From contig CM034538.1 of NCBI GenBank assembly GCA_020002185.1, positions 4,249,414 to 4,313,413 of the forward strand: a stretch of 64,000 bases of DNA, read 5' to 3'. A model generated the notes under the pieces. The model ran no database searches. It was given only the letters and a program-made list of their open reading frames with translations, and was not told where the DNA came from. The translations under genes and the position numbers were made by a program. This DNA comes from Paraescarpia echinospica. Taxonomy: Eukaryota; Annelida; Polychaeta; Sabellida; Siboglinidae. Shown piece by piece: positions 7,619 to 56,765 of the stretch; the first letter of the stretch is position 1, and the number at the start of each line of letters is the position of its first letter.

Positions 7619-7806
7619 ATGTTTGTAGGTGACAAGCAAGACTGTCAGTGTCATCACTGTTTGTAGGTGAAAAGCCAGACTGTCAGTGTCATCAATGTTT
7701 GTAGGTGAGAAGTCAGACTGTCAATGTCATGAATGTTTGTAGGTGTCAAGCCAGACTGTCACTATCAGTGTCTTCAATGTTTGTAGGTGACAAGCCAGAC
7801 TGTCAA
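7619..7806. repeat. Five tandem ~38-44 bp units directly upstream of a B3GAT exon
   Basis: Units begin TGTTTGTAGGTGACAAGCCA and continue with GACTGTCAGTGTCATCAA, starting near 7619, 7657, 7695, 7733 and 7777. Each carries TTTGTAG followed by GTGA, that is, an acceptor-like AG immediately followed by a donor-like GT. The last unit runs into the acceptor of the exon that begins at 7824. Confidence 0.85.
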
Positions 7807-7823
7807 TCCGTCCTTCCCCACAG

Positions 7824-16797: not shown

Positions 16798-17703
16798 AGG
16801 AAATAAAAATAGGGCATTAGCTAAAATCCTTTTTCTGTGTACACAAAGTTTAACATTGTATGTAACATTTGACAACATTAAACAAATACAGAAAAATACA
16901 TTTGTAGCATAAATTCGATTTTAAGCCCCTCTGTGAAGCGATTCCCGCGGAAAATGAAATTTTAATGAGCTAGGCGATCACGTGGTATCGTGACGTCACT
17001 TATGATACACACTCGCATCAGGCCGACCCTTTCCATGCATTCAGAGCATTTTTGCAAGGATAGCTTTTGGGTCGAAACGAGCGTCAGAACGAGTTATTGT
17101 GCAATATTCCGACGTAATACAAACACTAGTCATCATAGAGGAACAAACATTCATCTTACGGTTCCACATGAATCGAATTTTATTCACAACAACGAATGCG
17201 AATGGGCTTACAAGTCGACTAGGTTTCGCCGAGCTTGGGCTCGTTTTCAGAATAATTATATCGAATGCAACCAACGGGAGATAATCTACACCAATAAACA
17301 TACATAGCAAACATATATTGTATCCAGCTACATAAAGTAACGTGTATAATATCATAATAGCACTAAAATATCGATATATGAAAGTGTTGTACAATTTATC
17401 ATAACAACTTAAATCAGTCAGACAGTTTCCGTTGGTCCCGCTAGCTCGGTGGGTAGGCGCGTTGGTTACTAGTCATTTATTTTACAATCGGGTGACGCCG
17501 GTTCAATCCTGACAGCATGCAAACCTTTGATTTTCTATACACTTTTTTGGTTTATGTTTTCACGAAGTAATATAAACAAAATCATTTTATACTATAATGC
17601 ACTCAATGTAAATATTTTTTTAATTTTTGTAGTAATTATTTATTCGCCACAAAAATTAAAATATGGTCATTATATATAACGATGTTTCTAAATTGTATTT
17701 ATC
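16798..17703 (+). mobile_element. TTAA-target long-arm element (family X4), copy A, single type-1 arm
   Basis: Starts after TTAA (16794-16797) with AGGAAATAAAAATAGGGCAT and runs to the conserved inner arm end TTTCTAAATTGTATTTATC. Only the left arm is present. Beyond 17703 the sequence changes abruptly into the hAT transposase pseudogene, so the core and second arm are missing. Other copies lie at 31758, 35481 and 59241. The 61-117 codon frames seen in the arm recur in every copy and are shared only because the repeat is shared. Confidence 0.85.
17433..17517 (+). other. tRNA-like Pol III promoter region inside family X4 arm
   Basis: An A-box-like TAGCTCGGTGGG at 17442-17453 and a B-box GGTTCAATCC at 17500-17509 are spaced as in tRNA-derived promoters. 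The acceptor and T stems do not pair properly, so this is not a functional tRNA gene but a tRNA-related module. The same module occurs at about 32514, 59897 and 60455-60540. Confidence 0.65.
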
Positions 17704-31753: not shown

Positions 31754-32056
31754 TTAAAGGGAATAAAAACATATTGCTTAAATTCATGTTATATTACATC
31801 CTGCTATCTATTTCCATGTCCACCAAGCAAAAAAAATCAAACAAATTCAATGAATTAGAAATTCCACATTTTATGCTGTACATCCGGACATTTTCGAATA
31901 TGCATATTTTTGGCGCGCTTTTCGGGATGCCGAGATGTGACGTCACTTATGACTCAAACTCGCATCAGGCCGACCCTTTCCATGCATTCAGAGCATGTTT
32001 ACAACTATAGCTTTTGGGTCGAAACGAGCGTCAGAATGAGTTATTGTGCAATTTTC

Positions 32057-32197
32057 CGTTTAAACTTCTTGGGAACAGTTCCTATGGGAAAACTATCACG
32101 TGAGTCGATCTCTACCGGGAAATCGTCTCCCGGTGCCGCGACGCTGATCAACGATCGACGCTTCCGTCAACTCGACGTCGTCGTACCCGACGGTCTC
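32057..32197 (+). other. 141 bp captured fragment of the Polinton DNA polymerase gene
   Basis: Identical to 37801-37941 except for one base (A at about 32170 for G at 37914). It replaces five bases of the family X4 arm (ACGTA in other copies). The fragment begins in the motif B region of polymerase B. Both copies share the same sequence around the site where the polymerase frame is broken. Confidence 0.95.
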
Positions 32198-32513
32198 GAT
32201 ACAAACACTAGTCATCATAGAGGAACACGCAGTTATCTTACGGTTCCACATGAATCAAATTTTATTCAAAACAACGTATGCGAATGGGCTTACAAGTCGA
32301 CTAGGTTTCGCCGAGCTTGGGCTCGTTTTCAGAATAATTATATCGAATGGAACCAACGGGAGATAATCTACACCAATAAACATACATAACAAATATATAT
32401 TGTATCCAGCTACATAAAGTAACGTGTAAAATATCATAATATCACTAGAATATCGATGTATGAAGGAGGAGTTGTACAATTTATCATAACAACTGAAATC
32501 AGTCAGCTTTCTG

Positions 32514-33745: not shown

Positions 33746-34494
33746 CGTCGCAGCTACAGCGCCTCACGCGTAGGTTTTTGAACTACCGTTGTGATACCAT
33801 ACCTTCTCTTCTACGCTAAAAGACATAATATTACTTACTGATTTCTTACACTGAACAACTTGAGCGGTACATCGAACGACTGACTAATAAAATATAACTT
33901 ACCGTCTCCTTTCATTTGTTCACAATAGAGTCCTCGTTGTAATATCCGATTTACTATAGGCCACTATATTCCAATTACTTGTGCACGAACAATAATAATA
34001 ATCCACTATAAAGCCAACTTCAGCTTAATAATACAGCACACTTATTAGAAAACAGTCTTACTCCTAGCAAGTCCACAGTATGAATAATAAAACGCTTTCT
34101 CCAGTTAGCGTCGGTCTATATTATTTTAGCCCCTAGCGTTCCACCTCACGTCCATACGACCGAACTTTGTACTACGCCTACAGCTAGCCTTAACTAGGTC
34201 ACCGACGCCGTCATCAATCATTGACACCAGCAGCAGCGGCAGCCGTTGCATTAAGGAATACGTCACCAACTACGGGTTTGTACAGGAACGCGACAGAATA
34301 AAATAGCTAACTCACAACACCCTATTTTCCCACACAACTAATACACCGACCTAGGCTAGTGACCAAATAATAATAAGCCTTCCAGTTTTCCCTGGTTAGT
34401 ACACAAACACGATGGATTCAAATACTCTTTATTTTCCCTATAGGCTACACTACACTATTTGTTTACGTCTACATAACCACGAGTTTTCATAACC
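33746..34494. other. Polinton left-end interior, non-coding as far as seen
   Basis: AT-rich sequence between the proline-rich frame and the terminal repeat. No gene recognised. Confidence 0.35.
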
Positions 34495-34869
34495 TCACAC
34501 ATAACCACGATTTTCATAACCTCACACATAAGTGTCTGATTACTCATTCTTGCACTAGAGGATCTACTGTCTACTTTATTATAGCATTATACATAACCAC
34601 TAGAGGCCAGCACTATACACCATTATACACATTTACGTCAATAGAGGTCAGCACTATACAACTATACACTTACGTGAACCTGCGGCAACTATAAAAAGGG
34701 GTCAACTGGTTATTAATCAACGTTTTAAATCAAGTAGATTTTTATGACAGGTCATTCATTATTTATTTTTTATCAGTAGGAATCCGTTTGGAATGACTGG
34801 TCCAAAAACCCTTTGATGTCCTTTGATTTTTGATTCCTGTACGGTGTTGTCAGTCCCCTCTACACTACT
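34495..34869 (-). repeat. Polinton terminal repeat, left end (inverted in place)
   Basis: Similar to 45050-45416 along its length with several indels. Shared blocks include TAGAGGCCAGCACTATACAC, a GGTCATTCAT block and the last 100 bp to the terminus. A TATAAAA box at 34690-34696 sits inside. Because it lies in the same direction as the right repeat instead of inverted, this end has been flipped. Confidence 0.88.
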
Positions 34870-34875
34870 AACACA
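34870..34875. repeat. Target site duplication of the Polinton, left copy
   Basis: AACACA, the complement of TGTGTT found at 45417-45422 beyond the right terminus. The inversion of this end explains the complement. Confidence 0.85.
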
Positions 34876-35365
34876 TTCTCACCCTTGGTTGGTTCTAGCA
34901 CATATTGAGAAAGGAAACTATCTTATACTAAAAAAAACTTGTGGTCCTCACTCCCCGTACAGTCCCGTTTGCTCACTTTCCTTATAGCGTTTTGTTTGTT
35001 TTCATTATTTTCTATGCTTATGTTTGGACTTCGATAAACTAACCCAATTTAATCGTTAACGTTGAGTTTCCTGTAACTATATTACACCAAACAGCTTCTT
35101 CATAATCTGCTTCTCTTTCTAATTTTATTTCATAGGCCTGGATAGATTTTTTAATATATAAAATAACTCCTCTTCTTTCTATTCTATCTTTCGTAAACAT
35201 TACTTAGCCTGTCAGTCCCAATTCGGCATCTGCTATATCGGTGGTTGCCCATGATTCGGTTATACCTATTATGTGAGGGTCAATATCTTCTATCATAATG
35301 TTAGTTCATTTCTTTTTTCTATGCTCCTTACATTTAAATAAACGCATTGAGAGATTAGACTAGAT
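34876..35365 (-). pseudogene. CR1 retrotransposon endonuclease domain, 5' flank of the Polinton insertion
   Basis: Minus-strand translation from about 35365 gives NVRSIEKRNELTLMIEDIDP, HIIGITESWATTDIADAELG, then a DRIERRGVILYIKK block. These are the start of an AP endonuclease domain. It ends beside the Polinton terminus at the codon where the other flank (45417 onward) resumes. The 34880-34975 part is nearly the same as 50188-50285 in the other CR1 copy. Several stops are present. Confidence 0.8.
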
Positions 35366-35480
35366 TGTGAGATTAGTCTAGAAGGTAGTAAAATCAATTC
35401 GTCAGACGGTTACATAGAATAAGTACCAAATTATCCATGGATGTATATCATGACCATAGCAAGAAGAATTTATAGTTTAA

Positions 35481-35999
35481 AGGAAATAAAAACAAGGCAT
35501 TAGCTAAAATCCGTTTTCCATGTGTACAGAAAGTTTAATATTGCATGTAACATTCGAGAACATTAAAAAAATAAAGAAAATACATTTGTAGCATAAATTC
35601 GATTTTAATCCCGTCCGTGTAGCGATTCCCGCGGAAAATAAAAATTTAATGAGCTAGGCGATCACGTGGTATCTTAACGTCACACATGACTCACACTCGC
35701 AGCAGGCCGACCCTTGCTATGCATTCAGAGCATGTTTACATGGATAATGTTGGGGTCGAAACGAGCGTCAGAATGAGTTGTTATGCAATAATCCGATGTA
35801 ATACAAACACTAGTCATCACAGACGAACAAGCAGTTATTTTACGGTTCCACGTGAATTAAATTTTATTCAAAACAATGAATGCGAATGAGCTTACAGTAC
35901 AAGTCGACTAGGTTTCGCCGAGCTTGGCCCTGGGCTCGTTTTCAGAATTATATCGAACGCAACCAACGGGAGATAATGTACACCAATATACATACATAG
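35481..35999 (+). mobile_element. Family X4 element, copy C (outer part of a type-1 arm)
   Basis: Starts after TTAA (35477-35480) with AGGAAATAAAAACAAGGCAT and follows the type-1 arm until CATACATAG at 35999, where the sequence switches abruptly to Polinton polymerase. The inner arm, core and second arm are missing. It matches the outer portion that copy B lacks, so both may be halves of one element separated by an inversion. Confidence 0.85.
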
Positions 36000-38612
36000 T
36001 ATCACCTCGAACGTCCCCGGCCACGAGACGGCGCAATCCTTCGTCACGACCGGGGATTCAAACGAGCTCACGAAGCGCCTGATCATCGCCCTGGAGGCCG
36101 TGAGCAAAGCGGCATGCGCGGCTCTGCAACCGTCGTACGACTCTACCTTCGAAGAGATCGCCGAGCGCGAAGACAATTGGCGACTCAAGTGTCAAGAGAT
36201 GGAGGCGGCGTCGGCGGCTTCGGACAAGAACCCGTACACCGTACTCGCCGAGTGCCTGTGGGCCCGTCTACGACAGCTCCCCGTCCTCGGCTTCAACTCG
36301 GGTAAGTACGTCCTGAACGTCGTCAAAAAGTATCTCACTCCCGTGTTCATGACCGAAGGACAGAACATATCGTCGGCCTTTACGATCAAACGTCAGAACA
36401 ACTTCATGTGACAAACGACGGCGACGCTCAAGTTCCTGGACATCACCAACTACATAGCCCCCGGTTTTAGCTACGATAAGTTTCTGAAGGCCTACGGCTG
36501 CGAAGTGATGAAGGGACATTTTCCATACGAGTACCTCGACGAGCTGCAGACATTGAACTGCCGCCACGGGAGGCTTTCTACAGCCACCTAAAACGTGAAG
36601 GGATCTCCGTCGCGGCGTACGAGGGTTGCGTGAAGGTATGGCGCGACGAAGTGATGACGACGCTGCGGGACTTCCTCGTCTGGTACAACAACAGGGACGT
36701 GGCACCGTTCTTGGAGGACATCGACAAACAGTTCGCCTTCTACCAGCAGCGCCGCATCGATATGTTCAAAGACGCCATCAGCGTACCGGGTCTAACGCTA
36801 CTCTACCTGTTCAACGATCTCCCGCCGACGCATCACTTCACTCTCTTCAACAAGCCGAACAAGGACCTGCACCGGCTCGTGCATTCGCAGATCGTCGGCG
36901 GTCCCTCGATCATTTTCGCGCGTCATCACGAGGCCGACGTAACCGTTCTACGCCGAACCGAGTACGGCGAGTCGGCGCCGACTTGTCGCTCGATCGTGGG
37001 CTTTGACGCAAATACTCTCTACATCTGGGCTTTCACACAAGACATGCCGATGGGGTGGTACACGCGCCGCCGCGAGGAGAACGCCTTTCGGCCGGAACGC
37101 CTGCACCGCTACGGCCGTATGGCCGTACAGTGGCTGACGTGGGAGGCCGAGCGGACGGCTTGTGTCGGGAGACGAAGACGGCATACCAGTTCCAATGGTG
37201 CTTCTTCCACGGCTGTCCGTGTATGGGGAGGGAAACAAACGATTTTAGCGGAAAGCTGATGAGTCAACTGTACGCTGAAACGATCATCACCGTAGCCTAC
37301 CTTCGCCGCTTCGTCACCGTCGTCGAGATGTGGGAGTGCCAGTGGCGCGAGGTGAGACCGCCGCCGCCGCCGGAGACCCGTCGCTGGAGCGGCGGGAACA
37401 TTACGCGGTCGACGATCTTGAAGGCCGTACTCGACGGCAACCCCTTCGGCCTATTAGAGTAGTTCCGGATGTGCTGCGCGACACCTTCACCGAGATGCAG
37501 CCTATCTTCAAGAACGCCTACATTACATGCAATGATCTCAGCCCGTTCATGCGTCGCTACGCCGAAGCGCACGAGCTCCTGGCCTGACCTCAGGGACGCT
37601 CATGGGGAGCTTTTTTGGCACCAAGATTCTGCTCGCGAATCCCCTACTATGGTGGTATCTGAAGAACGGACTCGTCGTCGACCGCGTGTACCAGATCGTC
37701 GAGTACGTCCCGACCGCGTACTTTCGCCGCTTCGGCGACTCGGTCTCCGCCGCGCGACGCGAGGGCGACAGCGACCCCGACAAGGCCATCCTCGCCGATA
37801 CGTTTAAACTTCTTGGGAACAGTTCCTATGGGAAAACTATCACGTGAGTCGATCTCTACCGGGAAATCGTCTCCCGGTGCCGCGACGCTGATCAACGATC
37901 GACGCTTCCGTCAGCTCGACGTCGTCGTACCCGACGGTCTCTACGAGGTGGCGATGAACAAGCGAACCGTCAAGTACGCGCTTCCCATCCAGATCGGCTA
38001 CTTCATGTACCAGTACGCTAAACTAAGTATGCTGGAGTTTTACTACGACTTCATCGCTACCTACGTACCGCGTCCCCTGTTCCAGTACTGCGCAATGGAT
38101 ACCGACTCAACGTATTTGGGCCTCGCGAGCTCGAGGAGGAGGCTAAGTGCGAGCACTACTTCCGCCACCGAGGGGAATGGTTCCCGTCGGAGTAGTGCGA
38201 CGATCACGCGGAGGCGTACATACAGTGCCGACTCGCCGGCCGACCGTGGGACGCGCCCGCCTAATGTTGCGCGAAGCGTCGGACGTACGATAAGAGAAAG
38301 CCGGGCCTCTTCAAAGAGGAATGGTTCCGCCGCGGTATCGTCGAGCTCTTCAGCAAGACCTACTACTGTTTCGGTGCTGCCGGGGATAAGTACAGCACGA
38401 AGGGGTTGAGCAAGCGTCAGAACGACATCGACAAGGACGACTTCCTCGCCATGCTGCGCGGTCAACGGAGCTGTAGCGGATGGAACCGCGGCTTCCAAGT
38501 GAAGGAATCGTCCATGCTGACGTACATTCAGGAGCGCGCGGCGTTGAGCTACTTCTACGCCTAACGTCGCGTGCTCGACGACGGAGTCACCACGGCACAT
38601 ATACTCGTATAA
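36000..38612 (+). pseudogene. Polinton protein-primed DNA polymerase B, 5'-truncated and frameshifted
   Basis: Reads from the junction at 36000 into the exonuclease region (PVLGFNSGKYVLNVVKKYL near 36280, then LKFLDITNYIAPGFSYDKFL after a TGA at 36409-36411). The palm follows in 36630-37259 with GFDANTLYIWAFTQDMPMGW (motif A). Motif B, KLLGNSSYGKT, is at 37806-37838. Motif C, AMDTDSTY, is at 38092-38115 and carries the catalytic Asp pair. The C-terminal GFQVKESSMLTYIQERAALS lies near 38490-38550. At least five frame changes and two nonsense codons break it. The N-terminal third is missing at the breakpoint at 36000. It would replicate the element using a terminal protein. Convergent with the protease-to-ATPase block. 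Confidence 0.92.
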
Positions 38613-38826: not shown

Positions 38827-39276
38827 TCATTGCTGTTTTAGCCAGTCGAATACGAGACAGTCGTTAGCCACCCTATCAGGGCCGAACAGGCACTGGAAGA
38901 CCTTTAACGGCATACCGGGGCATCGTAAGAGCAGGTAGGCGACGCAATATTGTTCGCATACATTAGATACCCCGCTCTGCAGTCTCTTGTCGTTGTACGT
39001 CCACGAGTCGCAGTTACGGCGAAGGAAGGCGTAGAAGTCGGCGTGTAGCGGTGGCAGTCCGTACGAGTCGAAGTAGTCGCCTCGCCGATCGGCGTCCACG
39101 TAGACGGCCACCCTGTGTTCCCCCGGTTCGTCACCGTCGTCGGTGTTGCACACGAAGGCCGTCGGGTAAGCGGTGAGTCGTCTTTTCGGTAGCTCGTCTT
39201 TAGGCAGGACACCGATGACGACATTTTTAGTGAACGCGTCGTGCTTCAGGAGATGCATGAGCTGAAACGTGTCCAT
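38827..39276 (-). CDS. Polinton cysteine protease (adenovirus-type maturation protease)
   Basis: Intact 149-residue frame. Adenain-like features are visible: GEHRVAVYVD with the catalytic His (about residue 55), FDSYGLPPLHADF with the Asp/Glu-loop region (residues ~69-81), and CEQYCVAYLLL with the catalytic Cys (about residue 110). Related enzymes mature capsid proteins during virion assembly. The start ATG at 39276 lies two bases after the capsid stop at 39279, a compact spacing that supports this start. It is one of the few intact genes of the element. A minus-strand AATAAA follows the stop within 36 bp. Confidence 0.88.
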   Translation of the reverse strand: MDTFQLMHLLKHDAFTKNVVIGVLPKDELPKRRLTAYPTAFVCNTDDGDEPGEHRVAVYVDADRRGDYFDSYGLPPLHADFYAFLRRNCDSWTYNDKRLQSGVSNVCEQYCVAYLLLRCPGMPLKVFQCLFGPDRVANDCLVFDWLKQQ

Positions 39277-39278
39277 GC

Positions 39279-40525
39279 TCAGTAGTCGTACACGACGTTC
39301 GCCGTCTGGTCCAGCGCCGCTGCGAAGTGTACCTCCACCCGCAGGTTCCCCTTACGCACGACGTGGAAATGATCCCGTCGCAACAGTCGGGCGACAGGTC
39401 GAAGCCGAAGACAGTGTAGCCGCCGCCTAAGTCGGTGCGCGACAGGTCGTTACCCTCGTCCTCGTTCGCCTTTCCCGTCGCCCCGAAGAGGTTCATGTAG
39501 CATCGGATGAAACGTCGACCCGCGAAGTTCGGCTGCAGCTGCTTGCTCGGCACCTGGCGTCCGTTGATGTAGAGGGCGAGGAAGTTTATGTCGTGGTGCT
39601 TCGCTTTAAACGGGTTTTTATCGTAGGCACCGTTATAGGCGTCGTTGTCGACCAGACACATGAACACGCGTTTCGGGAGGGCACCCAGGTAGACGTTCTT
39701 GTGAGTATGAGACATCATGCCCTGCGGTATCGAGAACACCTTGCAGTCGACTCGACGTAGCGGATACTTGGCCGTCCCCTTCGTCAACGCTTTAAAGTGA
39801 CCGAGCTGGACTGCCGGATTCACCTTAGCTTTTCGCACTTGAAGGAAGGTCTCAAGCAGCACGATTTTGAACCCCGGATCGACGACCGCTCCCAGGAGCG
39901 CGAAGGCGTCCTTGCTTCGCACCAGTCGGATCTTTACGTCGACGCCGTTCAGTAGGTATCGGTCTTGCATGAACACTTTGGCGTGCAGGCGTCCCAACAG
40001 GTCCACGTCGCCACTGTTCCGTATGAAGAGGCGCCGCTGCGCGTACCCGTTGTTAGCATTCGCGGTCGCTTCCATGTATCCGGGGGTATCCTTGTACCAC
40101 AGACTGCCTCCGAGCTGCGTATTTTTGGCGTCGGCACCGTAACTCAGCAGGGTTTCGATATAGGCCCGGTAGGGATACGTATTGGTCGACGGCGTCACGA
40201 GCGTGCCGTTCAGCGACACGTCGACTTGACTGAACAGCGAATGCAGAAAATTGTTGACCGGGGTCACGACGCTGCAGTCTACGAGATCAGTACCGTCCCC
40301 CTGCACCACTTTGACTCGCGCGTACAGTCTAACGTTCGCCAGGTCCAGATAGTCGTCTCCCGATCCCGGGACGAGGATCTCGATAGGGTTGCCCGCGTCG
40401 AGGGCCGTCAGCGGCTGGTGATCGATCCACTGACTGGTCTAGATGCTCGTCTGCGTCATCGGAACGCTGAACAGGTCCAGTTCGCTCTTTAGGCCCTCGC
40501 ACGACTGTCGACGCAGGAACGCCAT
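39279..40525 (-). pseudogene. Polinton major capsid protein (hexon-like double jelly roll), disrupted
   Basis: A start ATG at 40525 opens a frame that meets a TAG at 40439-40441 after about 28 codons. The same frame then continues for some 360 codons. Family-typical blocks include VNNFLHSLFSQVDVSLNGTL, a TYPYRAYIETLLSYG block and LNGVDVKIRLVRSKDAF. Near 39365 the reading moves to another frame, whose stop TGA is at 39281-39279. The family forms the icosahedral capsid shell of adintovirus/Polinton virions. The nonsense codon can be explained by one C-to-T change. Two lesions (one stop, one frameshift) are visible. Confidence 0.88.
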
Positions 40526-40578: not shown

Positions 40579-41159
40579 TTACATGGCGCTTCGAAACAGG
40601 CCGCTGGTGACGGAGTCGCGCCGTGGTTGCCCGATGACGAAGTCGTCGTCGTCGTCCCCCGGCAACAACGCATCGGGACTCGCGATAACGGACGATTCGA
40701 AGCCCAGTATGCTCTTCAGGTGGCTCCGAGGTGTATGTTAAATTTGACACCCGGCGATAGACGCAGCTTCATCCGGTTAGAAATGCGGCTGTACTCCAGG
40801 TGGGTCTTGACTTTATCGGTGCTCAGTCTCGTTAGTGTCTCGTTGATTTTGTGCATCAACTCATAAGCACTGTTGTAAAAGCCGTGAGGGATGTTGCCTT
40901 GCCGGTGAATTTCACCACCGTCCAAGGTGGTATAAATGCCCCCCTCCCCCGCCTTGCAAGCCAAGAAGAAGTACGCGTCCTCTTCTCTCACGTTGTATCA
41001 GGTATGCGGGTACTGTAGCACCACTAGCCGGCATTCCCACTGCCCCGACAGGTCGATGTGTTGCGGTAGATTCGTGATGTAGTGAGTCAACGTGTTTTCG
41101 GGATGCCCTTTCATAGAGGCATTGCTCGGTAACGTCAGATAAAAGTCTGACGATGTCAT
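40579..41159 (-). pseudogene. Polinton minor capsid (penton) protein, disrupted
   Basis: The ATG at 41159 starts a frame with an ENTLTHYITNLP block, then LSGQWECRLVVLQYPHT, typical of the start of Polinton pentons. It hits TGA at 41000-40998 and continues with an IPHGFYNSAYELMHKINETL block (the usual PGxYxS motif). The C-terminal part is in another frame after about 40720, ending at TAA 40581-40579. Penton-like single jelly-roll proteins occupy capsid vertices. Identification rests on these motifs and on the position beside the major capsid gene. Confidence 0.75.
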
Positions 41160-41454
41160 CGCGTTTCATAGACGGACTCGGTAGAAGGTAACCGAGACAG
41201 CTACTCAGCAGCGCCGTCCACAGGTTGGAGTCGCCCTGGCCGCGCGTTAGACTGTATATACTGACCACGATAACCGTGTACAGGACGACGATCTGACACA
41301 GGAAGATGATCTCGGCTTTAGGGCATTCGTTGCCGCAGAAACGCCATGGAATGTGTTCGCGGACGTCGTGGTCGTCGTCGATAGCATCGGTCGCATCGAC
41401 AACGGTGGATGCGGCGGTATCTTCGGAGGCGGTCGTTGTCAACTCGTCGGTCAT
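41160..41454 (-). CDS. Polinton-associated single-span membrane protein
   Basis: The frame from ATG 41454 shows an acidic N-terminus, an IPWRFCGNECPKAEIIFL block, and a hydrophobic segment (about residues 49-67). The C-terminal motif is LWTALLSSCLGYLLPSPSMK. This short protein with a C-terminal SSCLGYLLP motif recurs next to the penton gene in animal Polintons, as far as I recall. The open frame runs on to 40912, but only the first ~95 residues look conserved. The penton ATG starts inside its last codons (41159), so a small indel has probably removed its stop. Function unknown; virion membrane or minor structural roles are guesses. Confidence 0.6.
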
Positions 41455-41619: not shown

Positions 41620-42705
41620 TTATTGTCCACGAACGCCTTGGCGTCGATCCAGATGGTTGCTGGAAGCCGGATAACCGCCCCATTTCACCAGCACCTCCGC
41701 ACCGCCTCCCTTACGTCGCCGACGCTGTAGAACAGCCTCCATGCGATACAGTTTATCCTTCGGGACGGTTACTCGTTGTAGCTCCGGTTCGTAGAAGGTT
41801 CTGTCTAGTAGCGTTCCGGCGTCGTCCCTCAAACGGTAAACGGGAGGGTCGGACGGGTGCGTTTCTACAACGGTGAAGAGCTCTTCGCTCCAGTTAGCCA
41901 TGTACCCTTTCTTGAACCGACCCTTCACCTTGCTGATGCGTACGCGATCTCCCTCTCGCAGTTTCGGCTTGGCTCCGCGACCCTCGCCGGTGTACAACCG
42001 CTGAAGCACAGTATCCTGGTTCGCGGTGTTGACACTCGCCGGCGTCCTACCGATGCTTCGATGGTAGGTGTTGTTGTACGACCACACGAAGTCCGGCAAC
42101 GGCTCTACGTATCTCAGCGTCTGATGCTTCGTGAAGTACCTCCACATGCGGGTCTTTAGCGTCCGATTGAATCTTTCCACGACACTCGCTTTAGTCTCCT
42201 CGTTGTGCGTCACGAAATGGTGGACGCCGTGTTCCGTCAAAAGTTTCTGAAAGGGTCTGTTGAGAAACTCCCTCCCCTTGTCGGTCTGCAGCGCGTTCGG
42301 CGGTTGCTTCTGCTGCTGCAGCAGGCTCTCGAAGGCTGGACTGGCTTTACTCTTCAACGGGACGCACCACGCCCGCTTCGAAAAGACACCGATGACCGTC
42401 AATAGGAACGTTATACCGTCGTTGTACTTTTTCAGTTTACCTACGTCGACGAGATCGGCTTGCCACTGCCGGTTTCGACCGCATACGATAACGCAAAGTC
42501 GTTTGACCGGTTTGTGAAGCGTATAGGCATCCTGTTCCGATAGCCACTGCTTGACGATTGGTTTGGGTACTACAGTCTCTCGGTGCAACGCGTCGACGTC
42601 GCCGTAGCTGCCCGCCTGTTTCGGGTCGAAGTAGGCACGCATCAGGCGGTCCCGTTGAGGGCGGCGGCGCTTTCGTTGCGTACCACGATTCCGCCGGGAC
42701 ACCAT
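41620..42705 (-). CDS. Polinton integrase (retroviral-type DDE with C-terminal chromodomain)
   Basis: From ATG 42705 the product starts MVSRRNRGTQRKRRR. The catalytic core shows Asp in WQADLVDV, Asp in LQTDKGREF and Glu in TKASVVERFNRTLK. This is the DD(35)E arrangement of c-integrases, which insert Polintons with 6 bp duplications. After the core come a GDRVRISKVKGRFKKGYMANW domain and a C-terminal VLVKWGGYPAS start of a chromodomain. The last ~15 codons depart from the family pattern, so a frameshift near 41680 probably trims the chromodomain. Otherwise open over 360 codons. An upstream in-frame ATG at 42750 is less likely because a separate small ORF ends at 42731. A TATATATATA run at 42749-42761 precedes the gene. 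Confidence 0.9.
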   Translation of the reverse strand: MVSRRNRGTQRKRRRPQRDRLMRAYFDPKQAGSYGDVDALHRETVVPKPIVKQWLSEQDAYTLHKPVKRLCVIVCGRNRQWQADLVDVGKLKKYNDGITFLLTVIGVFSKRAWCVPLKSKASPAFESLLQQQKQPPNALQTDKGREFLNRPFQKLLTEHGVHHFVTHNEETKASVVERFNRTLKTRMWRYFTKHQTLRYVEPLPDFVWSYNNTYHRSIGRTPASVNTANQDTVLQRLYTGEGRGAKPKLREGDRVRISKVKGRFKKGYMANWSEELFTVVETHPSDPPVYRLRDDAGTLLDRTFYEPELQRVTVPKDKLYRMEAVLQRRRRKGGGAEVLVKWGGYPASSNHLDRRQGVRGQ

Positions 42706-42730
42706 GACGATGGCGGCGAGTCCGATCGAT

Positions 42731-42871
42731 TTACGAAAAATAATATACATATATATATATAGCGAAAGCCGCTGCGACTACGGCGAGGCCGACGACGACT
42801 ACCGAAATTCGAGGGAAGGTACTAGCTTGTGAGCGGCTCGGGCGTTTCAACCTCTTTAATATTTCTCCCAT
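42731..42871 (-). CDS. 46-residue single-span membrane protein
   Basis: A small frame from ATG 42871 to TAA 42733-42731. It has a basic N-terminal half with LKRLKRPSRSQ and a hydrophobic helix ISVVVVGLAVVAAAFAIYIY (residues 22-41). Its start lies within the end of the upstream conserved gene, as in the compact layout of this gene block, and the integrase ATG follows 26 bases later. Basic-then-hydrophobic small proteins are common in virus-like elements. No precise family can be named. Confidence 0.55.
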   Translation of the reverse strand: MGEILKRLKRPSRSQASTFPRISVVVVGLAVVAAAFAIYIYVYYFS

Positions 42872-43513
42872 TCGCACTCTAGAGACTTAGCGCGACGACG
42901 TTTACCCGACCATTTCGTCGCCTGGTGCTGCTTCTGTATGTACGCATAGGGACTTTCAGACGCCTCATACGGTCCCCGAACGCTTCCCATCCAACCGGCG
43001 GTAGCGCCTTCTTCCTTTTTCGCATGAGGTCGTTCACGAGATCGACCATGTTACTTCCCGCGATAGGTTTACCGTCGTACACGAACTCGCCGCGGTTGTT
43101 CCAGCAACACAACGGGTCGGTTTTCATTTTCTCGATCAGAAGATGGGCTTTCCCTTTCAGAGTTTTCGGCATGCTTTCCACGATCTCGCGCTCTATACCG
43201 CTCAGTGCCGTCGACGGCGGCAGTGGCGCCGGCGGCGGCTGGCCCTCCTCGGTCACCCCTTTCACCACGGACACGCGTACCGGTTGCTCCGCCCGAGACG
43301 CCTCAATCATATATTGTAGCGACTCAGCAGTTGATTGTACGACGCCACCTTATCTCGCTCGGATAAATCCGAGCGGTCTAGAACGTTTTTCATGTCGTTG
43401 TCCAGGCTACTCATCACACGCGACGTGGTCGTGCTCGGTGGCTGGTCGATTAACGGGAGGAGACTCTCCACCAACCGAGGGTCTACCAACGCCATCTTCT
43501 TCGCATGTTGCAT
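42855..43513 (-). pseudogene. Polinton conserved protein of unknown function, frameshifted
   Basis: Starts at ATG 43513 (MQHAKKMALVDPRLVESLL), overlapping the upstream stop as TGATG. Follows with MKNVLDRSDLSERDKVASYN, then a frame change near 43308. It continues with a proline-rich linker and MPKTLKGKAHLLIEKM, a CCWNNRGEFVYDGKPIAGSN block, and VDLVNDLMRKRK, then VGWEAFGDRM. The pattern 'KTL..KA..L...L....W...GE..Y.G.PI.GSN.VDLVND' is recurrent in animal Polintons. The C-terminus after about 42950 shifts frame again. No enzymatic motif is seen; it sits in the structural block, so a core or virion role is a plausible inference. Confidence 0.65.
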
Positions 43514-43857
43514 CACCCGATAACCTGTCTGAGCAGCGGGAGAAGGACGGTGCTCGCTAACGGGGCTAGCAGCGCTGTCAGAAACCCGCCCGCACCCGTT
43601 TGCAAGACCGGCCACTTCTGTTTGACGGAGACCTGTTTCGACATCAACTTTCGCAGATGCTTCTTGTATTTTGACAGTACTTTTTTCTGTTTCGCTGACA
43701 ATTTCACGTTCCCTTTCAATATGGTATTTGCGCAGTCGCACAGACTACAGATGAAGTCGGGATGTTCGTTGGCAATTATGGCTTTTCTCAACTTTATATT
43801 CTTACAGGCATTCAGCATCTGCAGACCTAAGATATGCTTCTTCACGCGCCCTGTCAT
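43513..43857 (-). CDS. Polinton small basic protein with hydrophobic C-terminus
   Basis: Open frame from ATG 43857 to TGA 43515-43513, 114 residues. N-terminal MTGRVKKHILGLQMLNACKN, a Cys pair (CSLCDCA), and a strongly basic KGNVKLSAKQKKVLSKYKKH region. A GGFLTALLAPLASTVLLPLL hydrophobic end follows. The arrangement (basic middle, Gly/Leu-rich C-terminus) resembles the pX/core-precursor-like small proteins found in this place in Polintons and may bind DNA or membrane. The stop and the next start overlap by one base (TGATG), a sign of the element's compact coding. Intact as far as visible. Confidence 0.65.
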   Translation of the reverse strand: MTGRVKKHILGLQMLNACKNIKLRKAIIANEHPDFICSLCDCANTILKGNVKLSAKQKKVLSKYKKHLRKLMSKQVSVKQKWPVLQTGAGGFLTALLAPLASTVLLPLLRQVIG

Positions 43858-43928: not shown

Positions 43929-45010
43929 CTAAACGCGATCGTCGGGAAAAATGGCCGTACACAAGCGCATATTTTCCGATGTTTCCTGTTTCAGATCCAC
44001 CAGGAGATAACCGTAGGTTGGTGACCTGGCGTCTTGGAAGGCTTCCATCATGTATTTGATTATACCCGGATACTTCTGTTTTGCCAGGTGACCTACTTGT
44101 CCCGCGTCCCGGGGACTCTTGAATAGCACCATGTATTGCGCATTTAGGCTGATTGTGCTGTTTTCTTTCCCTTTTGGAAAGAGATTCTGCAGAAGCTGTA
44201 CGACGGACGTGTTGCAGTGATGACTTTTTTAGTGAATAAGGTCGTGACCCGACTATCGGTTTCCTCCATAAGGTCATCGAGTACTAGAAGCGTCCTCGTT
44301 TCCGCATCTAAAATCTTTGGATCCGGTAAACCGTCTACGAATTCTATATCGGAAATCATAGAGGCATAGGCGGTTTGCCACTGGCCGTAACACCACAGGA
44401 TTTTCTCCGGAGGCGGATCGATCATAGAAGAAGCGAACTGTAGTAGACGAGTGACGAAAGTAGTCTTACCGCAACCTGTAGGTCTAGCCACTATACACGT
44501 AAAAGGATGCTTTAGCGACGTGTCCATATCGACGACTGGCGCGCGGGAAACGAGCGATGATTTTTTTTCGTTTCTTCTATATTCATAACGCACCTCCATC
44601 AACAATTTGCTGAGCATATTTTGACCCTGTTTATTCCCGTGGGTGCTACCCCAAAAGGCTTCTTTTGACGGTACCCTCTCCACCAATTCGGCGTCCCCGG
44701 TAGCCAATAGGGCGTCTTTCAACTTTTTCGACGCTCTGAACTTACTCATCAACAGCGCTTTCATACACTCGACCGTAACGGCATCCCATTCGGCTCCCGT
44801 TTTCCTGATTCCGTAACTTCGTCGCTTCGATATATACCCCGACCACGACTGTTTGATGTACTCCGCATTTTCTTCGTCTTCATTAAACATTGCTTTTCTA
44901 AACTGATAGGCGTGCTCGACGGATCTGAAACTCCGACCGTACGCCGCGACTCGACAAGGATAAAAATTCGACAGGAACGACGACGAACCACCGAAATGTA
45001 TAGGCTCCAT
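43929..45010 (-). pseudogene. NADAR domain fused to Polinton genome-packaging ATPase (FtsK/HerA type), frameshifted
   Basis: ATG at 45010. Residues ~1-150 carry the NADAR (YbiA/DUF1768) signatures: FGGSSSFLSNFYPCRV, SVEHAYQFRKAM with the conserved Glu, GAEWDAVTVECMKALLMSKF, and FWGSTHGNKQGQNMLSKLLM. NADAR enzymes hydrolyse ADP-ribose N-glycosidic bonds. Without a stop, the frame runs into the packaging ATPase: KHPFTCIVARPTGCGKTTFV (Walker A, whose first Gly is Arg here) and TLLVLDDLMEE (Walker B). Near 44215 the reading is lost. The conserved C-terminus (MVLFKSPRDAGQVGHLAKQK, then YGYLLVDLK) lies in another frame at 44132-43929. An internal Met at 44526 could start the ATPase alone. The ATPase identity is firm, and the NADAR identity is strong by motif. 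Confidence 0.85.
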
Positions 45011-45049: not shown

Positions 45050-45416
45050 ACCTCACGCATAACCACGATTTTTATAACCTTACACATAAGTGTCATAACC
45101 TCTAGAGGCCAGCACTATACACCACTATACATATTTACGTCAATAGAGGTCAGCACTATACAACTATACACTTACATGAACACGCGGCAACAAAAAAAAG
45201 TTGGCTATTAATCAACCTGTTTTTATACATTTTTATAAGTAGGATGTCAGCAAGCAATTAAGATAAGACATTTTTTATAAGTAGATTTTTATGACAGGTC
45301 ATTCATCATTTCTTTTTTACAAGTAGGAATCCGTTTGGAATGACTGATCCAAAAACCCTTTGATGTCCTTTGATTTTTGATTCCTGTACGGTGTTGTCAG
45401 TCCCCTCTATACTACT
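45050..45416 (+). repeat. Polinton terminal repeat, right end
   Basis: Matches 34495-34869 with indels. The terminus reads ...AGTCCCCTCTATACTACT. The TATA motif of the left copy has decayed here to an A-rich run near 45190. Confidence 0.9.
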
Positions 45417-47848: not shown

Positions 47849-50288
47849 ATTTAACAAGATTTAACAAGATTGCCACCCAGAGAATTAACTCTAGGTGGCA
47901 GGTGGACAAGGAAGCCCTTTGGCTTATCGAGAGTCCGACCCTTTTATCTATGTGTATCCCGCCCGTCTGAGGTATGTGTCGATTTTATTTTTAAACATAT
48001 TCACGCTACTAGCACCCACACAATCAGCAAGTAATCTGTTCCATTCATTTACAGTCCTTTGTGAAAATGAAAACTTTCTTATATCCAATCTACTCTGCTC
48101 CTTTGCCAATGTAAGTTCATGTCCTCTAGTCCTTCTATCTTTCTTAACTGAGAAAAAAATATTTCTATCAATATTTTCATAACCCTTCAATATTTTAAAC
48201 ACTTCTATCTGATCTCCTCTCAATCTCCTGGTCTCTAGTGTTGTTAAACCGCATTTTTTTAGGCGTATTTCGTAACTAAGATCCCTCAGTTTTGGTATCA
48301 TTTTAGTTGCTCTCCTCTGCACTCTTTCTAGCATATCTATGTCCTTCCTGCGATATGGCCTCCACGCTTGAATACAATATTCTAAATGAGGCATAACTAT
48401 TGTTTTGTACAGCGGTATTATTAGCTCTTTTTCCTTATACGTTATGTTTCGCCTAATTAATCCAAGGATTTGATTTCCCTTTGAAGCTGCAATTCCGCAC
48501 TGCTCTGAAACCTTCATATCAGCACTAATGGTTAACCCTAAGTCCTTTTCTTTTACAGTAGTACTTAGTACAGTACCCCCCATTGTATATTCTACCTCTT
48601 CGTTCCCATGTCCTGTGTGGAGGCATTTACATTTCCCAAAATTGAACAGCATTTGCCACTGTTCAGACCATTTGATCAACCTGTCAAGATCATCTTGTAA
48701 ATGCTGTCTATCTCCATCACTTTTAATCCTTCTAAACACTTTTGTATCATCCGCAAATTTCAACACCTTGCTTGTTATTTCATCATCCAAATCGTTGATA
48801 TATATTAAGAATAATATAGGACCTAATACTGATCCCTGTGGTACCCCACTCAATACTGATTTCCAGTTTGAAGCCTCCCCATCAACTACTACACGTTGTC
48901 TTCTGTCAATCAACCATTGTTCTATCCAGTTTATTATACCATTTCCTATGCCATGGGCCTTTAGTTTAAGCAGTAATCTTTGATGTGGTACTTTGTCGAA
49001 AGCTTTTTGAAAATCTAAGTAGACGATATCTACTGGTGATCCCTCATCTACCCACTTAGTGATGTCTTCCAAAAAACATAACATATTTGTTAAGCATGAC
49101 CTCGCTTTAAAAAAACCATGTTGAGATGGGTTTATCAAGTTTTGTTTAACAAGAAAATCCACCATGTGATCTTTAATTAGTCTTTCTAACAATTTACAAA
49201 TCACTGATGTTAAACTCACTGGTCTATAGTTCTCTGACTTGTTTCTCGAACCTTTTTTGAATAACGGTATAATGTTTGCTTCTTTCCATTCTAAAGGAAC
49301 CACTCCCTCTTCTAATGACAAATTGAAAACTGTTGCAAGCGGTATGCTAATTTGTTCTACAATTTCCAATAGTAGTTTGGGTGGAATACCATCCACTCCA
49401 GGTGATTTATTATCCTTCATAGCCCTTATTTTCTTACCTACCATTTCCGGGGTTACAATTAATTGTCCTAAATAGTCTGAATCTGCCCCCTTGAACTTAG
49501 CCTCTGGTACTGGCAGTGAACTAATATCTTCCCTGGTAAACACTGAACTAAAGTACTCATTCAGGTCTTCTGCCATTAAGAATCCCTCTGATATTATATT
49601 TCCAGCACTATCTTCTAGAGGACCGACCTTATCTTGAACTTTCTGTTTGCTTCGAACATACGCATAAAAACTCTTGCTGTCATGTTTTATATTACTAGCT
49701 AATTGTTGTTCATAGCTTCTCTTTGAATTTCTAATTTCAGCTGTAGCTTGGTTAAGTGCTTCTTTATAACTGTTGTAGTCTTCATCATTTCCAGTACATC
49801 TGTATGACTTCCACATCATTTGTTTGTACTTAATTTTTCTAATGGCTTCTTTCGATAAGTGTTTCTTTTTGGACCGTTTTCCTTGTTTTTGGAAGGGTAC
49901 AAATTTATCGACTATGCACTTAATTTCACTCTTTAATACATTCCAGCATTCTGTTGCCGTCTTATTTTTCAGTGTGTTATTCCAGTCTATCTTTGCTAAA
50001 TATTTCCTCATGTCCTTATACCTTCCTTTGTGGAAATTTCTCCTATATTGCTTTTTACTATTCCTTTCTGATTTTATTTTGATGATAAAATGTATCTGGT
50101 TGTGATCGCTACTCCCCAGTGGCTCACATATCTTGACATTGTCAACTAATTCATTCTGTGAGGACAAAACTATGTCTAACACATTCTCACCCCTGGTTGG
50201 TTCTAGCACATGTTGAGAAAGGAATGTATCTTGAACTAAAACTAAAAACTTGTGGTCCTCACTCCCCATACTCTGTAGAGATTTCCAT
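47849..50288 (-). mobile_element. 5'-truncated CR1-type non-LTR retrotransposon with long intact RT frame
   Basis: Inserted in the Merlin transposase gene. The minus-strand frame from 50288 to 47951 is open for about 780 codons. It covers the end of the endonuclease (SSDHNQIHF near 50100), an RT with [38 protein letters not shown] (near 48830), catalytic FADDTKV (near 48760), and a C-terminal DIRKFSFSQRTVNEWNRLL. The 5' end is cut inside the endonuclease, as usual for target-primed insertion. The 3' tail is a short TTAAATCTTG-type repeat (47850-47875), characteristic of CR1. The lack of frame damage implies a recent insertion. CTTACA at both junctions is probably the target duplication. Confidence 0.9.
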
Positions 50289-50955
50289 TGTAAGGTGCCG
50301 TATGCACGCCACTCGTCGGTTATGATCGTCGTACCAGGCAGAACCCACTGCTGGATTATAGGAATCAGCGTTGCGGCATCCCTCTGTTGAACCGGGACTA
50401 GGAAAATCACCCCATGATCAGCTCTGTCGACGCCGCCAAGCACCCATACCCCGTCGATGCGACGTCCGCGGTTGAATTTTCTTTTTTCGAACTTGCTTTC
50501 GTCGATTTCAACTGTGTGCCGACACCACCGATGCGTACCGGGTTGATCTGGATGTGTTGAGCACATATGTCGCGCATGAAATTGCTCCAGTCAGCGTTTT
50601 CCCTGAAGCTATCCCGAGTTCGGACTGGATGGTGGGACACCCGACGCTGACCATGCTCCACCAGTACATAAATTGTGCAAGATCTTGCAGCGAGAAATGG
50701 CTTTTCGCGAAAAAGCTACCATGCCGTATGGAAAGACGTTTTCGGCATGGCTGGTTGGGACAGCGCCATGCGTAGCCATCGGCCAACGCAGCCGTCACCT
50801 CCCAACGACATGCCACGTGGCACGCCGGACAGTTGAGGTTTGTTGCAAGCAGGCGATTCGCTTGCAGCCAGGTGACTGTCCTCCTGGTCGATCTCGTCGC
50901 GATGACCAAACATCTCAAACGCAAGCCGCGCAGATTCACATTTACTTCAGCCATC
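50289..50955 (-). pseudogene. Merlin/ISXO2-like transposase, N-terminal part
   Basis: From about 50955 (MAEVNVNLRGLRLRCLV) the product shows a zinc-ribbon-like CPAC...CPNQPC pair, a HGSFFAKSHFSLQDLAQFMY segment, then ENADWSNFMRDICAQ. The catalytic region follows: HTVEIDESKFEKRKFNRGRR (first Asp) and ATLIPIIQQWVLPGTTIITD EW (second Asp). Frame changes occur near 50600 and 50525. IS1595/ISXO2-type DDE transposases in animals belong to the Merlin superfamily. The gene resumes at 47848 after a CR1 insertion. Confidence 0.85.
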
Positions 50956-52703: not shown

Positions 52704-55700
52704 GTGTGGGGCAAGTGCAACGGCGATGTTGATACCCCCGCAAACATACCACCCCCGCGACCATTGATTATGGACAATAATCTGGCCACAAACTGGAAGC
52801 AATGGCGTAAAATATGGCAGCGCTATGAAATAGCTACTGGCATATATAAGCAAGAAGGCTTAATTCGCGTCGCCACACTTCTGTCTGTGATAGGAGAGGA
52901 TGCGGCGAAAGTGTATGACACATTCACTTGGGTGGACAGTCAAAATGAACAGTGTGTAACCGATGTGCTAGCGCAGTTTGATAGATATTGTGAGCCACGC
53001 ACACAAGTGATCTACGAACGGTATCGGTTTAACAACCGGAACCAGGCGGTCGACAAAACGATATCAGCTTACGTCACGGATCTACGAACCATCGCGAAGA
53101 ACTGTGCACATGAAGACATCACACCAGATGAGATCATCCGCGATCGGCTTGTGTTAGGTTTGCGTGACGACAAGATGCGTGAGCGGCTGTTGCGCATGAA
53201 TGACCTCACCCTGGAGAAAGCCATCGACATCTACAAGGCAGCCGAGCAAACGAGTGCTCAGCTACAGGTTATGCACGGTGTCACGCAGGATGTCAGCTTC
53301 GTCAGGAAACGGCAGACGCGACAAGCAGCCAGCACACCACATAATCGCACACAGCAAAGGTTCACCACACCGAACCGCAAGTACTGTGGACGCCACCATG
53401 CTAAAAGAGAGTGCCCCGCATACGGCCAAACGTGCCGTAAGTGCGGAAAGAAGAACCATTTCCAGCTCAAGTGCAGGGCGACGGCGTCAACCGTCCGCAC
53501 GACAAAGAAAATCTTCTTCGTCGGTCTTGTTGAAGACAGAGCGTCGAAGGCAGTCATCACAGTGGAAGTTGGATCTCCGAGACCAAGTAGCCGGGTTCTG
53601 TTCCAAATGGACACTGGAGCAGAATGCAACGTGCTTCCACGAGAGACGTACTGCAGAGCGACAAGGGACCGCCAAATGAAGAAGCTGCAACACTGTACCC
53701 ACAAGTACATCAGGACGTACACTGGAGAAAAGTACCAGATACTTGGTTGGGTGACACTTCCGGTATGGCGACAAGGCAAACAAAGCAATTTGACCTTCAA
53801 CATCACGAACGATGACTTTATGCCACTGTTGTCATTGAAGACCTGCACAGAGATGGGTTTCGTGACGATCAACGACAGCGACAGAAACGTGCACGCAGTG
53901 AGCGACACGTCAGGAACGCGCGTGTCGTCAGGCTACAGTGACAGTCCACATCCAGCCCCACGATCATCGCTGAGGAAAGCGGTGCGAGCAGCAGTGAAAG
54001 AAAAAAACGATCTACTCACAGAGTTTAAAGATGTCTTTGAAGGTCTGGGCGAGCTGCCTGGCGAATACCACATCGTCACAGACGAGAGTGTTGCACCCGT
54101 GATACACCCACCTCGTCGTGTGCTAGTGCCGTTGAGAGCGAGAATCAAGGAGAAACTTGATGAGATGGTGCAGCGAGGAATCATCAAGCCAGTCACCGAG
54201 CCTACAGCTTAGGTGTCGAGCATACTTGTTGTCGTCAAGCCCGATAAGTTGAGGATCTGTATCGACCCAAGAGACTTAAACCGAGCGATCTGTCGCGAAC
54301 ACTACCAGATGCCGACGATCGAGGAAGTCGCGACACGTCTGACTGATGCAAAGATGTTCAGCGTGTTCGATGCCAAGGAGGGATTCTGACAGAAGCGTCT
54401 GGGCGAGGAGTCGAGCTTCAAAACGACTTTCAACTCGCTCTTTGGAAGGTTTCGTTGGACACGCATGCCTTTCGGAATAAGCTCAGCGCCGGAAGTCTGG
54501 CAGAGAACGATGCACGAATTCGTTGAAGACCTTAACGGAATAGAGGTCATCGCAGACGATTTTCTAATAGCGGGATTCGGCAAGACGGAGCAAGAGGTAA
54601 ATCAGAGTCTAGAAGACAATGAGCGCGCATTCTTCGAGAAGTGCCGAGCATGGAAGCTGAACCGCAGCAAAGTGAAGCGAGGACAAGCAAGCGTCCCCTT
54701 CATGGGTCACATACTGACGCCGGACGGCCTGAAACCCGATCCAACGAAGATATCGGCAATCAGAGAGATGCCGGAGCCAGGCGATGTGACCGCTCTGAAG
54801 AGATTTCTAGGCATGGTGAACTACTTGTCTAAGTACCTGCCACGACTCTCGGAGATGACTGAACCTCTAAGGAGACTTGATGACAAAGACGCAGAGTTCA
54901 ACTGGACAAACTCGCACACAGCAGCGATTGATGCCATTAAGCAGCTTGTCACCAAAGCACCAGTATTGCGCTACTATGACGTCAAGCAACCGGTCACGAT
55001 CCTGTGTGATTCGAGCAAACGTGGTCTGGGAGCCGTGTTAATGCAGAACGGACAGCCAGTCTCATACGCTTCGCGGGCTCTGACCGACACAGAGACACGT
55101 TATGCCCAAATAGAGAAAGAACTTTTAGCAATCGTGTGGTCGTGTGTCAAGTTCGATCAGTACATCTATGGGCGAGACGTGGTCACCATTGAATCAGATC
55201 ACGAACCGCTGAAGACAGTATTCAAGAAAGAGATTCACAAGTCACCGAAGAGGCTACAGCGCATGTGTCTCGCTCTACAGAAGTACAACCTAGATGTACA
55301 GTACAAGCGAGGTCCACTAATGCATATCGCCGACACGCTCAGCCGTGCCTACAGAGACACAACAGAGGGCGGCCAGCATGAGAACTGTGAGATTCGCGCA
55401 CTAGAATCAGTGAGCCACGAGAACATCTCGGTAACCAAGACGAAACGAGACGAGTTCAGGGAGAAAGTGGCCGCAGACGAAGAAACTCAGGCGCTGATCA
55501 AGATCATACGACAGGGATGGCCTGCGAGAAGAGAATGTCCGCCAGCAGCATCGCCATATTATGACGAGCGCAGCAGCCTGGTTGAAGCCGAAGGACCAGT
55601 GTTTCGAGGCGAGCAGCTGGTCGTTCCGAGGTCACTGCGAAAGGATATGCTGCAGCAGATACACAGCAGCCACATTGGAATGGGGGGATGCGTTCGACGA

Positions 55701-56765
55701 GCCAGAGAAGTGCTGTACTGGCCGGGGATGAGTGCTGACGTCAGAGACTATGTGTCCAGATGCAGCACTTGTCAGACATTCACGCCACAGCAGTGTCGTG
55801 AGCCCCTGCATCCATACGAACTGCCATCTCGTCCGCGGGAGAAGTTAGGAGGAGATCTGTTCGAGTTCAACGGACAGTCGTTCATCATCATAGTCGATTA
55901 CTGGTCCAACTACTTCGAGGTAGCGGAGTTACACAAGAAAACGTCACGGTCTGTAATAAACCAGTTAAAAGCGCAATTCGCTCGACATGGAATACCTTCT
56001 GTTATGATGACAGACAACGGACCGGAATTCGCAAGTGATGACTTCAAGGAATTTGTGAAACTATGGAAGATCAAGCACATCACTTCTAGCCCGAGGTTTC
56101 CGCAATCGAACGGCAAAGCGGAAAACGCGGTGAAGACGCGTAAAGCACTCTTCAAGATAGCACGAGAAGACCACAAAGACCCACTGCTAGCGCTGCTAGA
56201 CTGGAGGAACACCCCGAGCGAGTATATCGGAACATCGCCGGTACAACGGCTGATGGGAAGGCGTACAAGGACCCTCCTGCCGACAACTGAGGAGCTATTA
56301 CGCCCAGCGATACCACCTTCAACAGAAGAGAAGCTGGCCTCACAGAAGGAAGCTCAGACAAAACACTACAACCGAGGCACGAAGAAGCCCTCGGAGCTAA
56401 ACGCTGGTGACAACATCCGAATGAGGTTACCAGGTGATCGACGCTGGTCACTGGGGCTTTGTCGCCGTGTGTTGGGACACAGATCCTACGAGGTTGAGGT
56501 GAACGGCGCGCGCTACCGTCGCAACCGTCGTCAACTGCGGTCGACAGCTGAACTGCCAAACATGGACACGGCTATTGATGACATCGAGTCGACGCATCAG
56601 GACGAGCCACTTCAGCGAAACCAGACGACCGAACCAGCTGACGTGCACTACGGTCCGGAGTCATACAGCACGCTGCCACGACCCGTGCCGGCACCGAGAC
56701 GGCCCAGGGACACCCAACCAACCCACTCCACCTATACCGATGCTACGAAGATCTACCCGAGATAG
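52704..56765 (+). pseudogene. Ty3/gypsy (Mag-like) gag-pol with two nonsense codons
   Basis: One reading frame runs from the gag region (PRPLIMDNNLATNWKQWRKI near 52755) to 56765. Domains in order: gag; a CCHC-type knuckle region (CRKCGKKNHFQLKC near 53430); protease with MDTGAECNVLP; RT (RICIDPRDLNRAI near 54250, FGISSAPEVWQ, IADDFLIAG); RNase H (ILCDSSKRGLGAVL). The integrase has the HHCC finger (HSSHIGMGG, CSTC) and the DDE residues (GGDLFEFNG, MTDNGPEF, SNGKAENAVK). In-frame stops are TAG 54210-54212 and TGA 54387-54389, both at positions where Trp is usual. The region upstream of 52704 needs a frame change to reach an earlier ATG at 52672. No envelope gene. Otherwise well preserved. Confidence 0.93.

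Follow-up and report, generated by a model that had tools for sequence, protein, structure and literature searches.

A NADAR gene beside the packaging ATPase of a decayed Polinton in Paraescarpia echinospica is probably an accessory gene with an incidental run-on

Introduction

A single open reading frame in the genome of the annelid Paraescarpia echinospica (Siboglinidae) contains a NADAR domain followed by the packaging ATPase of a Polinton, which belongs to a group thought to be ancestral to many eukaryotic DNA viruses. Does this frame encode a packaging motor with an additional enzyme, two genes that happen to share a frame, or a stray piece of DNA beside a dead gene? It lies in a stretch of 64,000 nucleotides (assembly GCA_020002185.1, contig CM034538.1, positions 4,249,414 to 4,313,413), which was analysed as a whole and is hereafter called the window. 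NADARs have been shown or proposed to remove ADP-ribose from guanine or to process ADP-ribose derivatives, according to the available text of two sources (PMC11543638, PMC11125620). A sequence-only reading of the locus took the frame for a fusion protein that would protect DNA during packaging. Our analysis favours another answer: probably, one lineage of Polintons captured the NADAR as an accessory gene, with an ATG separate from that of the ATPase, and the single frame is an accidental run-on in a decayed copy.

Results

The minus-strand frame from 45016 to 44144 is open for 290 codons without a stop and includes, in order, the motifs SNFYP, EHAYQ, FWGS, GQNMLSKLLM, PTGCGKTT (Walker A region) and LLVLDD (Walker B). 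Pfam places NADAR (PF08719) at residues 9-142 (E 7.8e-24; 85.2 bits against a cut-off of 35.1) and Adeno_IVa2 (PF02456) at residues 157-206 (E 6.6e-5; 22.3 bits against a cut-off of 21). Polinton ATPases match the ATPase part of the frame at up to 182 bits among the matches listed (120 of 1589). Hence, the sequence-only reading was right that the NADAR is complete, with all four of its named motifs, and that its frame continues uninterrupted through Walker A and Walker B; the Pfam search of the N-terminal residues that it proposed gives a NADAR match far above threshold. The coordinates it gave, 43929 to 45010, hold for the start and the motifs but not for the end, because 43929-44228 is in another frame. 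The ATPase homology of the NADAR-containing frame fades near 44228 and the frame stops at 44144. The N-terminal half of the packaging ATPase (44228-44527, minus strand) has a Met at 44527, a Walker A with R for the first G, and Walker B, and the C-terminal half (43932-44228, minus strand) is read in a frame that differs from that of the NADAR and the Walker A part.

A shared frame is not in itself unlikely to arise by chance. Between the residue where the closest NADAR relative (P0121, see below) ends and the ATPase Met there are 13 codons. Stretches of 13 codons are stop-free with a frequency of 0.71 on this strand within the element and of 0.52 on the minus strand over the whole window, which, multiplied by 1/3 for phase, gives a chance probability of 0.17-0.24 for a shared open frame over this spacer. 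With an accidental shared frame at about 0.2, the continuity of the frame is in itself weak evidence of fusion. The relative phase of the two ORFs is set by the size of a run of eight A at the junction (44561-44568, minus strand). This run reads A_AAA_AAA in the NADAR frame, a pattern known from sites of -1 ribosomal slippage, though probably by chance.

The NADAR ORF (44564-45010, minus strand) has its ATG at 45010 and is of the YbiA type. An AlphaFold2 model of it, built with 39 relatives, is confident (mean pLDDT 91.9). Together with its two close relatives, P0121 and P0122, it scores above the cut-off of the NCBIfam ribosyl N-glycosidase model TIGR02464. In PHROGs it matches a family of unknown function (5.9e-33), and in the PDB it matches E. 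coli YbiA (2b3w) and the NADAR protein 8bau, which a profile built from the window NADAR together with 39 relatives recovers with E 1.6e-35 and 1.5e-22, respectively. Relative to these YbiA-type structures, the catalytic glutamates and the lysine are retained. The available text of PMC11543638 lists E43, K50, R79, W89, R93, E125, D130 and W133 as the ADP-ribose contacts of the P. nicotianae NADAR. We mapped them by eye via the PDB alignments, assuming that 8bau is this protein with a numbering offset of two. By this hand mapping five of the eight contacts are kept (E31, K38, W74, E110 and W119, corresponding to E43, K50, W89, E125 and W133), D130 becomes E116, and R93 becomes T78, where P0121 and P0122 have R. 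R79 lies opposite Y65, in a column with R in just 58 of the 120 listed relatives.

A residue of the last strand separates the types of NADAR, being glutamate in the YbiA type, D in the BC4488 type and H in the phage type, as far as the available text of PMC11125620 and PMC11543638 goes. E110, common to 116 of the 120 listed NADAR relatives, matches E125, so the window NADAR is of the YbiA type and not of the BC4488 or phage type. Judged by its sequence, the domain is a genuine YbiA-subfamily NADAR. The copy in the window may be inactive, because it departs from its relatives at two positions: T replaces the K or R found at position 78 in 118 of the 120 listed, and S replaces the G that all 120 have at position 133.

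Since the NADAR starts 40 nt inside the right terminal repeat, it lies within the Polinton, between this repeat and the ATPase. The terminal repeats (34492-34869 and 45050-45416, both on the plus strand) are about 370 nt long, with AG...CT ends. They are in direct orientation in the assembly, so that the left one is an inverted end, and have identical outer ends, CTACT being followed by AACACA at 34869/34870 on the left and by TGTGTT on the right, where the minus strand reads AACACA, the target duplication. The outer flanks of both repeats continue into a LINE, and a paralogous copy of this LINE has the unoccupied target with a single AACACA (50160-50200, plus strand). The simplest account is that the Polinton inserted into the LINE with a 6-bp target duplication and that its left end and flank were inverted afterwards. 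The left repeat and its LINE flank (34492-34961) are inverted with respect to the right end, either by a real inversion or by an assembly fault.

Several hallmarks of a Polinton are found here: a retroviral-type integrase and a packaging ATPase of the FtsK/HerA/IVa2 type, in addition to the long terminal repeats and the 6-bp target duplication. Much of the remaining annotation relies on L004, a related contig introduced below, whose 1397-residue ORF we take to be PolB. The order starts with a plus-strand PolB remnant (35998-38609), which has tblastn matches within residues 465-1397 of the L004 protein. It is followed on the minus strand by a protease-like ORF (38836-39348; 51% to L004 10341-10949), presumably an adenain-like protease, and by a capsid-protein homologue (39377-40525; 57% to L004 9187-10497) that had no Pfam match and that we assume to be the major capsid protein. 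Then come homologues of two further L004 ORFs (40758-41454; 47-48%), the integrase (41626-42645; rve E 7.7e-10 in the ORF 41623-42777, with a chromodomain below cut-off), homologues of two more L004 ORFs, of which one is divided between two frames (42945-43857), the ATPase and finally the NADAR. No Rfam family matched the window at gathering scores.

This copy is a relic. The first 464 of the 1397 PolB residues have no match, and the remainder is divided among five pieces in three reading frames. Beyond Walker B the ATPase frame is broken, and the first Gly of its Walker A is replaced by R. This position is G in 118 of P0001-P0120, the 120 listed ATPase relatives (112 by pattern and 6 by eye), D in P0008 and E in P0081.

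A dispersed repeat of about 0.55 kb occurs at 16990-17552, 31831-32467, 35473-35999, 59237-59764 and 60421-60983, with one copy inside the Polinton. A 141-nt segment from the PolB region of the Polinton occurs at 32057-32197 and 37801-37941 with 99% identity; the former sits in the repeat copy 31831-32467, between two blocks matching another copy at 60588-61089. A minus-strand ORF (47948-50590) has a fragment of an ISXO2/IS1595-type transposase in frame with a reverse transcriptase, an apparent fusion that probably results from transposon nesting. There is also a retroelement ORF, presumably Gypsy-like, that encodes RNase H, integrase zinc-binding and integrase core domains (54465-56765), and an exon-like ORF, probably a host gene, whose product has a glycosyltransferase family 43 domain (7705-8556; E 2.4e-36).

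Is the NADAR a regular part of the ATPase? Relatives were defined as matches to a 287-residue piece at E<=0.001 (1589 in total), and the 120 listed ones were examined; all 120 match the ATPase, with 51-70% identity. None of these 120 (of 1589) has a NADAR at E<=0.001, the best sub-threshold match having E 0.019. The alignment starts at window residue M161, the Met at 44527, in 115 of the 120, all with a Met there, and 80 of the 120 proteins begin exactly at this residue, which favours separate starts for the two domains. The spacer KKSSLVSRAPVVD aligns weakly with KIKSGLRTSLTPFAD, the 17-residue N-terminal extension of P0001-P0003, and part of it may be old or genuine N-terminal coding sequence of the ATPase; these three proteins, with a similar linker, start at their own Met. 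Five of the listed relatives (P0060, P0070, P0081, P0085 and P0113) have PolB C-terminal sequence, identified by its match to the window PolB, in frame before the ATPase. In-frame run-ons thus arise independently of NADAR. PolB and ATPase are separate genes in L004, where the former ends at 4229 and the latter begins at 4583.

A profile search of genome contigs with the ATPase alignment gave three relatives (L003, L004 and L005) in 17 stretches. All are Polinton contigs in bacterial MAGs (Escarpia symbiont; Ca. Nomurabacteria), presumably by contamination with host or other eukaryotic DNA. The comparison of upstream regions is based on L003 and L004, the 69 nt upstream of the ATPase in L005 being too short. 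An in-frame stop directly precedes the ATPase Met in L003 and lies 20 codons before it in L004, and neither has a NADAR upstream of the ATPase (tblastn, E<=0.001; L003 has just 291 nt upstream). Stops before the ATPase in related Polintons, which the sequence-only reading named as evidence against a fusion, are therefore present in L003 and L004. Yet, both contigs lack the NADAR, so their stops weaken the case for a core component more than that for a fusion specific to one lineage. Scanning IMG/VR with the fused protein gave no match, and scanning it with the alignments of the ATPase (24 stretches), the capsid (57) and the integrase (43) gave no relatives.

Among the 120 listed relatives of the NADAR, two are close: P0121 (151 aa, on a 1082-nt contig), with 71% identity, and P0122 (152 aa, on a 799-nt contig), with 65%. 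They resemble the window NADAR in start and size, and both terminate at the junction, beyond which the window frame reads on (EYRRNE/KKSS). Contig edges are an unlikely cause, since the two proteins stop at the same place, and we infer that both terminate in stop codons. In a tree of 63 NADARs (that of the window, the first 60 of the 120 listed relatives and two from viral contigs), whose bootstrap had not settled, the window NADAR, P0121 and P0122 form one clade apart from the other 60 rows (support 100/100; stem of 1.37 changes per column). They share an insertion at window residues 41-42 and an S at position 114, neither of which occurs in the other 118 listed relatives; position 114 is W in 114 of the 120. 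That two NADARs of this clade end at the junction favours a separate NADAR.

Scanning IMG/VR with the NADAR alignment gave two relatives in 24 stretches, with 34-37% identity and outside the window clade. No contig with a separate NADAR beside a Polinton ATPase was seen, and none of the ATPase relatives listed (120 of 1589; 120 of 153) lies on a contig of 1082 or 799 nt, a check that is blind to ATPase pieces under 58 aa. P0121 and P0122 are too short for the length limit of the search with the 287-residue piece.

We reject a conserved NADAR-ATPase fusion on the absence of the domain from all 120 listed ATPase relatives, the ending of the two closest NADARs at the junction and the stops that precede the ATPase in L003 and L004. 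Nor do these results support the NADAR as a core component of Polintons.

Discussion

Our results point to a lineage of Polintons that would have gained a NADAR gene between its terminal repeat and its ATPase gene, the place where we observe it. To judge from the relatives, translation of the NADAR would start at the ATG at 45010 and that of the ATPase at a separate ATG at 44527, and the single open frame would be an incidental run-on across the short, A8-bearing spacer of a decaying element. In living copies the product might be a free ADP-ribosyl hydrolase or N-glycosidase of the YbiA type that, by analogy with the NADAR family, would remove ADP-ribose from guanine in nucleic acid or, alternatively, break down ADP-ribose derivatives. 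Such a free NADAR could counter host antiviral responses based on ADP-ribosylation, as is proposed for virus-encoded NADARs in the available text of PMC9503650. Some observations speak against this reading. No contig was seen with a separate NADAR next to a Polinton ATPase, the T at position 78 and the S at 133 may leave this copy inactive, and the GC content of the NADAR (0.474) fits that of the ATPase (0.470 and 0.478) but not those of the integrase (0.562) and the capsid (0.580).

The same difference from integrase and capsid would be expected if a piece of a host NADAR, or of the NADAR in the ORF1 of a Tx1-type LINE, had landed once in a dead copy without ever being a gene of the element. 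We regard this as unlikely. Sources of such a piece exist, since the available text of PMC11125620 has NADARs in many animal phyla and that of PMC12477816 indicates that oyster Tx1 LINEs apparently carry one in ORF1. The window is also dense in transposon fragments, and no second Polinton with a NADAR was seen among the listed ATPase relatives, in the genome-contig scan or at the L003 and L004 loci. However, a stray piece fits poorly with a complete ORF whose start and size are near those of P0121 and P0122, and which begins 40 nt from the terminal repeat and leaves 13 codons to the ATPase Met. Its GC content is also that of the adjoining ATPase rather than that of the flank (0.382). Finally, the ORF1 of a LINE would be much longer than the NADAR ORF of the window.

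A genuine fusion restricted to this lineage, in which the ADP-ribosyl hydrolase of the packaging motor cleans the translocated DNA, seems to us quite improbable. It would explain the 290 open codons, and the resemblance of the spacer to the extension of P0001-P0003 fits a linker that may be partly old coding sequence. But those three proteins begin with their own Met, the listed ATPase relatives have no NADAR, the NADARs of P0121 and P0122 go no further than the junction, stops precede the ATPase in L003 and in L004, the window ATPase is broken and altered in its Walker A, and the frame would be shared by accident in about one case in five. We give little credence to a Polinton motor whose N-terminal NADAR would strip ADP-ribose from the DNA of the element during its passage into the capsid, with a dead copy in the window and the stand-alone NADARs as a sister state. 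The idea that a NADAR on the motor guards DNA during packaging finds no support here, the ATPase of this copy being broken, and nothing seen in the window analysis ties the NADAR to packaging.

A Polinton with an accessory NADAR would add a new carrier for accessory genes of a known kind. Viruses and transposons took up NADARs repeatedly, and a Polinton with its own would extend this range. If true, it would hint at ADP-ribose-based host defence against DNA elements. Our results also show how relying on open frames alone in decayed elements manufactures fusions, the five PolB-ATPase run-ons being an example.

The closest element that we could compare is L004 (QGON01000029.1), a Polinton/Maverick contig filed in a MAG of the Escarpia laminata symbiont and presumably tubeworm host DNA. 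It resembles the window element in its ATPase pieces (67-71% identity), integrase (59-61%; the L003 integrase is at 61%), capsid homologue (57%) and PolB pieces (42-60%), and its gene order is identical from the ATPase to the protease. In contrast, its PolB and ATPase share a strand, PolB coming first and a short ORF separating the two, and there is no NADAR, whereas in the window PolB is at the far end on the opposite strand and the NADAR occupies the slot before the ATPase. The NADAR, for its part, differs from the YbiA-type proteins 2b3w and 8bau by the insertion at residues 41-42 and the S at 114 that mark the window clade.

We found no published Polinton carrying a NADAR among the papers listed by our searches of the open-licence literature. 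NADARs are known from NCLDVs, phages and RNA viruses, where they are thought to counter ADP-ribose-based defence and, outside the polyproteins of RNA viruses, typically stand alone (PMC9503650, in its available text). These are virus-encoded like that of the window, and the same text names no Polinton among the carriers. Retrotransposons offer a second parallel, with NADARs described in Gypsy elements of Ectocarpus and apparently in ORF1 of oyster Tx1 LINEs (PMC12477816, in its available text). There, too, a eukaryotic mobile element captured a NADAR of the YbiA family, but as a part of Pol or ORF1, whereas the element in the window is a DNA-virus-like Polinton in which the NADAR is most likely a gene of its own.
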